A DNA stretch of 64,000 nt from Thermopolyspora flexuosa. Lineage in GTDB: Bacteria; Actinomycetota; Actinomycetes; Streptosporangiales; Streptosporangiaceae. A program made the position numbers and the translations under genes. Positions 1,289-46,379 of this stretch are shown piece by piece. Numbering within the stretch: the stretch's first letter is position 1; each line of letters opens with the position of its first letter. Where the stretch lies: NCBI RefSeq assembly GCF_006716785.1, contig NZ_VFPQ01000001.1, forward strand, positions 2,604,001 to 2,668,000. The letters run 5' to 3'. The notes below the pieces were generated by a model. The model ran no database searches. It saw only the letters and a list, made by a program, of their open reading frames with translations, and was not told the DNA's origin.

Positions 1289-1482
1289 GATCGTTTGATC
1301 CTATCGGCGTGCGGGGGAGCGGTTGCCCGGCCTCGTGGGCCGCGGGACAGCGTTGTGCCGACGTGATTGACGCTCGGTCCGCGCTGATGGTTTCTCGGGC
1401 CGGAGGGGGAGAGGCACATGGGCCGCCGGGCGCGGTCATGGCGCCGGGACCGCCATATATAAGACGCATTCGTCCGTTAACC

Positions 1483-2066: not shown

Positions 2067-2100
2067 TGTTTCATGCATAATCTTTATTATGCATCAAACA
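2067..2100. other. dif-like recombination site upstream of the recombinase gene
   Basis: Left arm TGTTTCATGCATAA (2067-2080), centre TCTTTA (2081-2086), right arm TTATGCATCAAACA (2087-2100); the arms match at 13 of 14 positions. The core GCATAA-N6-TTATG is identical in its arm bases to the core of E. coli dif, and the centre agrees at 4 of 6 bases (recalled dif centre TGTATA). It ends 32 bp before the ATG of the tyrosine recombinase, an arrangement known from single-recombinase Xer systems such as XerS/difSL. A plain operator or promoter element (TATTAT at 2085-2090) is the alternative. Confidence 0.6.
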
Positions 2101-2132
2101 TCTGGGCTCCCCTCCGTGGCCGGGGCGGTGTG

Positions 2133-3137
2133 ATGGCCGGGCTCGGGCAGCCCGCGGACGGGCGGGTGTTGGAGGCGATCGGCGAGTTCGTGCGGTCGCT
2201 GCAGGCGAGGAAGATGTCGCCGCACACGATCGCCGGGTACGAGCGTGATCTGCGTACGGTGGCGGAGCTGGCCGCCGCGCAGGCCGGTGTCCCGCTGAGC
2301 GACCTCGAGGTGCAGGCGCTCGGCGGCAGGCTGATGCGGGCGGCGTTCGCCGAGTTCTCCGCGCCGCGGTCGGCGGCGAGCGTCAACCGGGCGTGGAGCG
2401 CGTGGAACCGGTTCTTGACGTTCTGCGTGGCTGAGGGGCTGCTGGAGGGCAATCCGATGGCGGCGGTCCCCCGGCCGCGGCAGCCCGCTCGGGCGCCGAA
2501 GCCGCTGCTCGGCGAGGGTGATGCGGCGGTGACGCTGCTGGAGCGGATCGCCGCGGGCGCGCGTAAGGCGCGGGACCCGTGGGTGGAGCGGGATCTGGTG
2601 GTGCTGGCGCTGGGGCTGCTGACCGGCATGCGCTCGGCCGAGCTGCTCGGCCTGACGATCGGCTCGATCGGCGGCTTCCCCGGCGACCGCCGTATCCAGG
2701 TGGTCGGCAAGGGCGGCAAGACCCGCTCGCTGCCGATCGAGCCGGGCCTGGAGCGGCTGATCGACGCCTATCTCGACAGCCGCATGCGGCGATTCAACCT
2801 GGCCTCTCTCCCCCGCTCGGCGCCGCTGCTGGTCGACACCCGTAACCGTCCGCTGCAGCGTGGTGGCCTTCAGTATCTGGTGCGGCAGTGCTACCGGTAC
2901 GCGGGCATCAGTGACCGGGTGCAGAAAGGCACGCTGGTGCACGCGCTGCGGCACGAGTTCGCCACCCGCCTGGCCGAGCGCGGCGCCTCGGCGCACGAGC
3001 TGATGGAGCTGCTGGGCCACGCGTCGATCGTGACCGGGCAGAACTACATCGCATCCACCGCCCGCCAGGTACGCGCCGCCGCCCGCGCCAACCCGATCTA
3101 TCCGGTGCTGGACCGCCTCTCTTCCGGCGGTGACTGA
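2133..3137 (+). CDS. tyrosine recombinase / integrase, XerC/D-like
   Basis: A 334-residue site-specific recombinase. The N-terminal core-binding (SAM-like) domain covers about residues 10-105. The catalytic domain (about 125-325) shows the expected set: R167 in TGMRSAELL, lysine in VGKGGKTRS (193-196), H270 and R273 in HALRHEF, H296 in LLGHASI, and nucleophile Y305 in GQNYIAS. It should cleave and rejoin DNA at paired inverted arms. I chose the ATG at 2133 because the in-frame extension to 1797 runs back through the inverted repeat and has poor codon use. No excisionase or phage genes flank it. A dif-like repeat lies directly upstream and is its most likely target or operator. Length fits XerC/D, but it could be an element integrase. 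Confidence 0.9.
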   Translation: MAGLGQPADGRVLEAIGEFVRSLQARKMSPHTIAGYERDLRTVAELAAAQAGVPLSDLEVQALGGRLMRAAFAEFSAPRSAASVNRAWSAWNRFLTFCVAEGLLEGNPMAAVPRPRQPARAPKPLLGEGDAAVTLLERIAAGARKARDPWVERDLVVLALGLLTGMRSAELLGLTIGSIGGFPGDRRIQVVGKGGKTRSLPIEPGLERLIDAYLDSRMRRFNLASLPRSAPLLVDTRNRPLQRGGLQYLVRQCYRYAGISDRVQKGTLVHALRHEFATRLAERGASAHELMELLGHASIVTGQNYIASTARQVRAAARANPIYPVLDRLSSGGD

Positions 3138-31327: not shown

Positions 31328-31383
31328 CCCGCGGCGGCCGTGCCGTACCAGGGCCGCCCCCGGTACGGCACGGCCGCCGCGGG
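31328..31383. terminator. 22 bp-arm hairpin between convergent genes
   Basis: Perfect 22 bp arms at 31328-31349 and 31362-31383, loop 12 nt, filling the whole gap between the methyltransferase stop and the stop of the DoxX gene. It should terminate both transcripts. Confidence 0.75.
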
Positions 31384-41037: not shown

Positions 41038-41088
41038 ATCATAGCGTTCCGAACGAACGAAACACGCTTGCGTGCGTTCGCGAACGCA
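41038..41088. promoter_or_regulatory. operator cluster at the coiled-coil gene promoter
   Basis: Contains the minus-strand -10 TATGAT (41038-41043), the interrupted palindrome CGTTC-C-GAACG (41045-41055), further GAACG copies, ACGC-TT-GCGT (41064-41073) and the perfect 16 bp palindrome TGCGTTCGCGAACGCA (41073-41088). The shared GCGTTC half-site suggests that one protein binds several positions, perhaps the zinc-finger protein itself. Confidence 0.6.
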
Positions 41089-41102
41089 GAAATCAAGATC
41101 GG

Positions 41103-41137
41103 TTAGACATTATGAGAATGCCCGTTATCATCGTGTC
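41103..41137 (+). promoter_or_regulatory. recombinase promoter overlapped by a 13-6-13 inverted repeat
   Basis: TTAGAC (41103-41108), 17 bp, TATCAT (41126-41131), then 6 nt to the GTG at 41138: a leaderless promoter. The same bases hold an inverted repeat: GACATTATGAGAA (41106-41118), centre TGCCCG, TTATCATCGTGTC (41125-41137), 10 of 13 positions matching, with AA-N6-TT at the inner edges. It may be an operator or a core recombination site for the encoded recombinase. Confidence 0.6.
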
Positions 41138-42190
41138 GTGACGAGCGTGGAACCGGACCGCACCCAGACCCCGCCCACGGGCGCCCTCGTGCCCGTCGCC
41201 ACCCCGCTGCGCGGGCGCCCGCCCGCGCGCACCGCCCAGGAGCTCGCCGACCTCATGCGCGGGCTCGGCCTGCCGCAGCACGTGCTGGTCCGCACCGCCG
41301 CCTGGCTGTCCAGCGACCGGCGCCGCTCACCCCGCACCCACGACGCCTACGCCCGCGACCTGTCCTGGTGGCTCGCCTACCTCGCCGCCCGCGGCGTCGA
41401 CCCGCTCACGGTGCCCGCCACCGAGGCCGACCTGTACGCCGGGGCGCTGCGCGCCGCCGGGCTCGCCGACGCCACCCGCGCCCGCCGTATCTCCGCCGCC
41501 TCCTCCTGGAGCCGCTACCTGGCCCGCCACGGCGACGCCACAGACCCCTTCGCCGGCATGGACCGGCCCAAGGCGCCCAAGCACTCCACCACCCGCGGCC
41601 TGTCCCGCGACGAGCTCGCCCGCATGCTCGACCACGCCCGCCGCCACGAGTCGGCCCGCACCTACGCGATCCTCGCCGTGCTCGTCGTCACCGCCTGCCG
41701 CGCCTCGTCCCTCATCGGCGCCGACCTGTCCGGCTACGGCAGCGACCGCGGCCACCGCACCCTCGACGCCCCGGTCAAGGGCGGCCACACCAAACGCTGG
41801 GTGCTGCCCCCGTTCGCCTGCGAGGCCCTCGACGCCTACCTCGCCGAACGCGGCACCGCCCCCGGCCCGCTGTTCGTCACCTCCACCGGCAGGCGGCTGA
41901 CCCAGCCGTACCTCCACGAGATGATCAACCGGGTGGCGCGCGCCGCCGGGGTGCCGTTCCCGATCTCCCTGCACAGCATCCGGCACAGCGTCATCACCGA
42001 CCTGCTGTCCGACGGCACCCCGCTGCACATCGTCCAGGACCTGGCCGGGCACGCCGACCCGCGCACCACCCGCCGCTACGACCGCGCCGCCGGCGCGCTC
42101 GACCGCTCCCCCGCCTACCACCTCGGCAGCCGGTTCGAATCCGCGCTGGCCCGACTCGACCAGGACCGGGCCGACCGCGCCGAGCCGTAA
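41138..42190 (+). CDS. tyrosine recombinase / integrase (second)
   Basis: 350 residues. The core-binding domain covers about 40-145. Catalytic residues are R188 (TACRASSL), K214 (VKGGHTKR), H279 and R282 (HSIRHSV), H305 (LAGHADPRT) and Y314 (TRRYDRA). The body is only distantly like the recombinase at 2133. It should perform strand exchange at a site with short inverted arms. The GTG at 41138 is chosen because of the leaderless promoter; the longer frame from 41072 crosses both the promoter and the palindromes. No excisionase or att duplication is obvious. It may act at the upstream inverted repeat together with the divergent coiled-coil protein. Confidence 0.9.
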   Translation: MTSVEPDRTQTPPTGALVPVATPLRGRPPARTAQELADLMRGLGLPQHVLVRTAAWLSSDRRRSPRTHDAYARDLSWWLAYLAARGVDPLTVPATEADLYAGALRAAGLADATRARRISAASSWSRYLARHGDATDPFAGMDRPKAPKHSTTRGLSRDELARMLDHARRHESARTYAILAVLVVTACRASSLIGADLSGYGSDRGHRTLDAPVKGGHTKRWVLPPFACEALDAYLAERGTAPGPLFVTSTGRRLTQPYLHEMINRVARAAGVPFPISLHSIRHSVITDLLSDGTPLHIVQDLAGHADPRTTRRYDRAAGALDRSPAYHLGSRFESALARLDQDRADRAEP

Positions 42191-43440: not shown

Positions 43441-43543
43441 GATCCTCTCTCCGGTTCCCGCACGGCCGTACCGCGGCCGCCCGCCTCCTCCGGCCCCGAT
43501 CCCGCCCCGGGCCGGGGATGTCTCCCCGGCCCGGGGCAGGGGC

Positions 43544-46129: not shown

Positions 46130-46379
46130 GCCGCCCACCGGCACGCGGCGGTACGGCACGGCGCCGGCAGGCCGGCGGTGCGGGCGCGGCGGCCGGGACG
46201 GGCGGGTCGCAGTCGGTGGTGGGTGGCTGTCGCGGTCACGGGATCACTCCTGGTCGTCGTGCGGATCGGGCATCCGTGTCGGGTCGGGTGCGGCCGGTGC
46301 CGCCGGTGTCGAATGCGGTTCGGCCCGGCTCCGGGGGCGGAACCGGGCCGAACGAGGGGCCGTACGGCCGGGTGCGGGG

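Follow-up and report, generated by a model that had tools for sequence, protein, structure and literature searches.

Two recombinase/site pairs at the chromosome terminus of Thermopolyspora flexuosa, a genome without canonical dif and XerC

Two dif-like sites and their recombinase genes

The window analyzed here is a stretch of 64,000 nucleotides of Thermopolyspora flexuosa, located at 2.604-2.668 Mb of a 5.216-Mb contig. It shows a dif-like site, palA (2067-2100, no strand), with 14-bp arms at positions 2067-2080 and 2087-2100 and the 6-bp centre TCTTTA at 2081-2086. In the site, TGTTTCATGCATAA-TCTTTA-TTATGCATCAAACA, 13 of the 14 arm positions are complementary, and the core arms are identical to those of E. 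coli dif (GCATAA-N6-TTATG, consensus as printed in PMC5993296), with four of the six centre bases in common. A complete tyrosine recombinase gene, here named TR1 (2133-3137, plus strand, 334 aa), lies directly after the site, with 32 bp between palA and the ATG at 2133. Both the repeat with its E. coli-like core and the gene had been described in an earlier note, made from the DNA letters alone, and were confirmed when recomputed.

TR1 contains the Pfam domains PF00589 and PF02899, and shows the R-K-H-R-H/W-Y residues of a Xer-type Phage_integrase catalytic domain (R167, K193, H270, R273, H296 and Y305), all of them invariant. The best NCBIfam model is XerC; however, TR1 remains below the equivalog cut-offs of XerC (152 vs 335 bits) and XerD (127 vs 330 bits), and far under that of XerS (NF003462, 60.6 vs 267 bits), so that it does not qualify as a member of the XerS family. 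Genuine local XerC and XerD proteins also miss the NCBIfam cut-offs, and the phylogenetic tree is therefore the better orthology test. In this tree TR1 forms a clade of its own, and neither TR1 nor the second recombinase described below (TR2) groups with XerC or XerD; by clade as well as by cut-off, TR1 is not a XerC or XerD orthologue. The neighbors of palA and TR1 encode transporters and enzymes, with no mobility genes, and no tRNA that could serve as attachment site for an element was found within the 64-kb window.

In 40 simulations, 0.25 equally good inverted repeats with a 6-bp spacer were expected by chance per 64-kb window, while none of the 40 simulated windows equalled the AT-richness of palA. 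Since a chance repeat in 64 kb is not extremely rare, the meaning of palA rests on its conservation and position. The core GCATAA-N6-TTATGC has two copies in the genome, and the second (C1:2025975) lacks the outer arms, so that the full palA site is unique, as is characteristic of a chromosomal dif.

The second dif-like site, palB (1483-1520, no strand), starts 0.58 kb before palA and consists of arms at 1483-1498 and 1505-1520, with 15 of 16 positions paired, around the 6-bp centre TTCACC (1499-1504). It is conserved in relatives as TATACCGGACAGAA-N6-TTCTGTCCGGTATA. As an inverted repeat it is as good as palA, and it had been overlooked at first reading. Its recombinase gene, TR2, is on the minus strand 329 bp left of the window (C1:2602587-2603672; L150:2587-3672). 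The proposal of a system resembling single-recombinase Xer systems was well founded but incomplete, given that two recombinase/site pairs are present instead of one. The interval between palB and palA (1521-2066, no strand) is non-coding and contains no KOPS-like motif in either orientation. The spacing between the two sites is 365-772 bp in 22 loci of named relatives; no conserved sequence or RNA was found in the interval among relatives, and no GGGGGAG in 26 loci. The possibility that palB arose from a canonical dif which acquired two XerD arms once XerC was lost was considered and rejected, because many other genera have palB next to a canonical dif that is still intact.

Elsewhere in the window, a tyrosine-recombinase-like ORF of 372 aa (41072-42190) is found beside a 387-aa ORF on the opposite strand; it has a very long branch in the tree and is not close to TR1 or TR2. 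Good GC-rich inverted repeats with 6-bp spacers at 31339-31372, 43504-43537 and 46319-46352 are possibly terminators or due to chance.

Chromosomal position and the polarity switch

The assembly has three contigs, and dnaA is located on the second one, of 0.505 Mb. Assuming circularity and disregarding the small third contig, palA would be separated from dnaA by 49-51% of the circle whichever way these two contigs are joined. The single palA is thus roughly opposite dnaA, albeit across a contig boundary, which agrees with the check suggested in the earlier note that the site should occur once per genome and opposite oriC. Among 13 near-complete relatives, nine show a palA-dnaA separation of 47-52% of the contig. 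In three genomes (G055, G086 and G113) the terminus sites are separated from dnaA by no more than about 19-34% of the contig, which could reflect the assembly, a rearrangement or asymmetric replichores. The GC skew of the T. flexuosa genome locates its switch only broadly, between about 2.1 and 2.6 Mb, and is too noisy for fine placement of the terminus.

A screen of all octamers around palA gave CGGGGGAG as the most polarized one: 76 of its 82 copies over 420 kb orient toward palA. Its best change-point is a 1.5-kb interval that contains both palA and palB (G000:2605312-2606808; 2605405-2606808 for GGGGGAG). The innermost left copy (1312-1319, plus strand) and the innermost right copy (2808-2815, minus strand, reading CTCCCCCG on the plus strand) both point to the sites, and in sampled stretches of the two contig arms the counts are 29 forward and five reverse on one arm, and four and 25 on the other. 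Across 22 Streptosporangiaceae loci, 34 forward and no reverse copies are found left of the pair, compared to one and 88 on the right; the corresponding counts in 22 Nocardiopsaceae-type loci are 46 and 0, and four and 67. The switch interval of the octamer contains dif and palA in genome G024, dif and palB in G070, and palB alone in G083, and the octamer also flips at the terminus sites of G096. Furthermore, the 0.9-kb switch interval of G106 contains palA together with palB, whereas TR1 itself lies outside it, 89 kb from palA, and this indicates that the sites, and not the gene, are held in place.

A KOPS polarity switch at dif is systematic across most replicons studied (PMC13342612), and polarity of this type inverts at palA. 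From its polarity, CGGGGGAG is likely the KOPS of these actinobacteria. It is KOPS-like in G000 (T. flexuosa), G024, G070, G083, G096 and G106, unlike the E. coli KOPS GGGNAGGG, which showed no useful polarity here.

Distribution of the pairs and loss of XerC and dif

Homologues of TR1 were found at 55 loci in genome contigs, mostly from named species. Sequence identity is 75-93% in Streptosporangiaceae, the top value belonging to a metagenome bin, and 55-65% in Nocardiopsaceae; Longispora and Stackebrandtia also have the gene. Most of the 55 loci show (T)GATGCATAA-N6-TTATGCATCA or a variant of it within 4.5 kb of TR1. The distance is hundreds to thousands of bp in most relatives, the 89 kb of G106 being found once. 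In 151 genomes of the order, TR1 orthologues are cleanly separated from other recombinases (at least 332 bits vs at most 152 bits). Both TR1 and palA are present in 68 of these genomes, TR1 only in four, palA only in three and neither in 76 (Fisher p=7.6e-34, with related genomes counted as independent and shared ancestry uncorrected). The core of palA is usually single per genome where present, and a reversed control pattern was found in four of the 151 genomes. This co-occurrence excludes chance as the origin of palA, and the idea of a new recombinase/site pair is well supported; the search of related genomes for the same site and gene proposed in the earlier note recovered the pair repeatedly. 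The second pair is distributed in the same manner, with both TR2 and palB in 83 genomes, neither in 66 and a mismatch in two. In genus g12 (L132-L135), where palB is less than 100 bp upstream of TR2 in two genomes, a third pair is formed by TR3 and palC (GGATAA-TATGTA-TTATCC), with palC about 50-450 bp upstream.

Bacteria with circular chromosomes are held to rely almost universally on XerCD/dif for the separation of fused chromosomes. Canonical dif was found in all 66 actinobacterial genomes of a 2011 survey (PMC3025954), and in 118 of the 151 genomes analyzed here, nearly always as one copy. No canonical actinobacterial dif with up to two mismatches and no XerC were found in the T. flexuosa genome. 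The only canonical Xer gene left is a XerD, which belongs to the XerD clade in the tree and is located on the minus strand at C1:3124549-3125499 (L259:5549-6499), adjacent to parA- and scpA-like genes. Its catalytic set is R-A-H-R-L-Y, with the lysine changed to alanine and a histidine to leucine, and the ORF stops eight residues past the tyrosine. A better dif elsewhere accompanied by ordinary xerC and xerD genes, which had been named as evidence that would overturn the original proposal, is therefore absent. T. flexuosa has no functional XerC/XerD pair; in Nocardiopsaceae both systems are kept.

Seventeen relatives also lack canonical dif, and like T. flexuosa all of them contain TR1; XerC is also missing in the 12 tested. 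Scoring XerC as present when two canonical Xer hits were obtained, it was found in all 25 genomes that have canonical dif and in one of the 19 that lack it (44 tested; the exception is G073). The XerD ORF is kept in all dif-less genomes tested. At least one catalytic residue of XerD is lost in 10 of 18 dif-less genomes, in eight of these the tyrosine, while all are intact in the other eight of the 18 and in 22 of 22 other genomes. None of the TR1, TR2, TR3 and XerC sequences examined has lost a catalytic residue. Like the co-occurrence tests, these loss tests treat related genomes as independent; the problem of shared ancestry is eased, though not removed, by the recurrence of the pattern in different genera and by the variety of XerD lesions. 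According to reports that cite Karaboja 2021 (PMC12322038, PMC11898615), XerD of Bacillus unloads SMC at the terminus, and the catalytically dead XerD of T. flexuosa may be retained for a non-catalytic role of this kind.

Old and new parts occur in several combinations among the 151 genomes. Canonical dif is found with palA/TR1 in 50 genomes (Nocardiopsaceae-like, a family-like label that, as for the other G-numbered genomes, is a guess from named loci) and with palB/TR2 in 58. Both palA/TR1 and palB/TR2 without dif are found in 18, T. flexuosa among them, and palB/TR2 and palC/TR3 without dif in genus g12. Two genomes (G083 and G084) have palB/TR2 alone, and nine, some of them fragmented, have dif alone. 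The spacing is 271-1289 bp between dif and palA (51 genomes) and 341-4689 bp, with a median of 584 bp, between dif and palB (54 genomes). A canonical-type dif is retained in Nocardiopsaceae, Longispora and Stackebrandtia, and its distance to palA is mostly 0.27-1.3 kb; in the Longispora and Stackebrandtia loci a dif-like sequence is 278-559 bp from palA. In Nonomuraea gerenzanensis (NZ_LT559118.1, L313), which has dif and palB/TR2, the two sites are 1.7 kb apart and the octamer switches between 6487431 and 6490076; this circular chromosome of 11.85 Mb is filed as a plasmid in PLSDB. The genomes G083 (L223) and G084 (L224), of 9.0 and 11.1 Mb, show palB/TR2 as the only recognized terminus pair and contain several palB-like copies; neither genome has XerC, canonical dif, TR1 or palA, which suggests that TR2/palB can be enough. 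In a metagenome-assembled genome (G052; L311, L312), TR1/palA is at a contig end while dif, palB and TR2 are on a 5.7-kb contig, and this genome is either a real three-system intermediate or the result of contamination.

Interpretation and comparison with known systems

The explanation that we favor, with a probability of about two in three, is that TR1 acts on palA and TR2 on palB, and that both pairs are Xer-type terminus resolution modules which settled beside dif and then replaced XerCD/dif. The innermost FtsK-orienting motifs flank both sites, and in the gap that they enclose FtsK would bring sister copies together. Most likely, each recombinase would bind as a homodimer to both arms of its own near-perfect palindrome, and the symmetry of palA is consistent with one protein on both arms. 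Two sister sites would then be synapsed as a tetramer, with strand exchange at the edges of the 6-bp centre, converting chromosome dimers to monomers and perhaps removing catenanes. TR1/palA would derive from a self-contained recombinase/site module like those of large actinobacterial plasmids. Homologues of TR1 with 36-39% identity are found on such plasmids, an ATAA-N6-TTAT-type inverted repeat lies 20-92 bp upstream of the gene in all four examined, and TR1/palA therefore looks like a plasmid-type module settled in the terminus. TR1-like recombinases with an upstream inverted-repeat site were seen on large plasmids of Mycobacterium, Mycolicibacterium and Rhodococcus (L287-L290). New modules could be kept at the terminus because only that zone is FtsK-fed; they would coexist there with XerCD/dif, and as soon as one of them was working, the cell could dispense with XerC, dif and the catalytic function of XerD. 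In the T. flexuosa lineage XerC and dif would have been lost and XerD would have shed catalytic residues, and a possible course of this exchange can be read from relatives that still combine old and new parts. Some observations fit less well: G083 and G084 persist with TR2/palB only, XerD keeps all catalytic residues in eight of 18 dif-less genomes, and in a few relatives the site deviates considerably from a position 180 degrees from dnaA. Moreover, two active systems could undo each other's exchange and re-form dimers, so that regulation or a division of labor is expected.

Persistence with a single pair also feeds an unlikely alternative, that TR2/palB is the working dimer-resolution system and TR1/palA is secondary or vestigial, serving for instance in decatenation or as back-up. 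G083 and G084 keep TR2/palB in the absence of TR1, palA, XerC and canonical dif, palB is at the motif switch in G083, and the 18 genomes of the dif-less clade that contain TR1 all contain TR2 as well; however, the catalytic residues of TR1 are intact in every lineage examined, palA is placed as tightly as palB, and Nocardiopsaceae keep TR1/palA without TR2. That palA is a heteromeric site for TR1 and the remaining XerD, with TR1 replacing XerC, would account for the retained XerD ORF and for the XerC model being the best match of TR1. We consider it very unlikely, given that the arms of palA are nearly identical whereas canonical dif is asymmetric, that XerD lacks the catalytic lysine and histidine here and the tyrosine nucleophile in others, that TR1 is outside the XerC clade, and that TR1/palA also occurs in genomes with both XerC and XerD.

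The earlier note had also allowed for a Xer-exploiting element, that is, an IMEX or integrated plasmid inserted at dif and still mobile. The similarly sited plasmid homologues and the adjacency of palA/TR1 to dif in relatives speak for it, but it is highly improbable: palA is a single copy without an attL/attR pair, the flanking genes encode transporters and enzymes in place of mobility functions, several genera have TR1 orthologues in the majority of their members, and these orthologues form well-supported clades, and the sites remain at the terminus even with the gene 89 kb away. Phage and plasmid collections yielded no close relative of TR1, only distant homologues of less than 60% identity, and the sole close TR2 match in the plasmid collection is the N. 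gerenzanensis chromosome. It is scarcely credible that palA serves merely as an operator for the transcriptional control of TR1, by TR1 itself or by another regulator. In T. flexuosa 32 bp separate the site from the start codon, and TR1 bound there would probably repress its own promoter; in most relatives, however, palA is far from the gene and yet at the motif switch.

On a broader reading, put forward tentatively and with the odds somewhat against it, the terminus of these filamentous actinomycetes may be a permanent device with two sites. The FtsK gap would offer two positions, mostly 0.3-1.3 kb apart, either of which could be taken by dif, palA, palB or palC together with the matching recombinase, and the two would act as a functional pair. 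After the loss of XerC, XerD would have lost its catalytic activity, and its gene, beside parA and scpA, would have been retained for a task at the terminus that needs no catalysis, for example SMC unloading.

Replacement of XerCD/dif by resident modules would mean that a large group appears to have exchanged this system, with living intermediates carrying old and new parts within about 1 kb. Sharing one FtsK-fed zone allows a new module to be tried out with the old one still in operation, and the swap of an essential segregation system becomes testable. The analysis yields two new recombinase/site pairs, a likely KOPS and XerD proteins that seemingly outlive their catalytic function. No published description of the TR1/palA and TR2/palB systems was found in a search that covered mostly open-access journal papers.

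Several known systems resemble the pairs in part. The canonical actinobacterial XerC/XerD/dif system (Frankia-type dif CACGCCGATAATGCACATTATGTCAAGT, PMC3025954) shares the ATAA-N6-TTAT core, the Xer-type catalytic domain and the chromosomal position; it differs in the outer arms of the site and in the clades of its recombinases, and its dif and XerC are absent here. The modules on plasmids of Mycobacterium paragordonae (NZ_CP025547.1) and Rhodococcus opacus (NZ_CP130954.1) are similar to TR1/palA in recombinase sequence and in their upstream inverted repeat, but are plasmid-borne, have different outer arms and presumably serve multimer resolution. XerS/difSL of streptococci and lactococci and XerH/difH of Campylobacter and Helicobacter (PMC5357621) likewise combine one recombinase with a site near its gene at the terminus; in contrast, TR1 reaches only 61 of the 267 bits required for the XerS family, the arms of palA are almost perfectly symmetric and a second pair is present. 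XerL/dif of Legionellales (PMC9765430), likened here by its description, is also a single tyrosine recombinase in the XerCD role, with a terminus site whose arms are long uninterrupted inverted repeats (10-12 bp). However, L. pneumophila xerL is more than 400 kb from dif, whereas T. flexuosa has two recombinase/site pairs side by side, with canonical dif beside them in relatives. The single-recombinase kind is already known from XerS, XerH and XerL, and what appears new is the two-site terminus with modular replacement.
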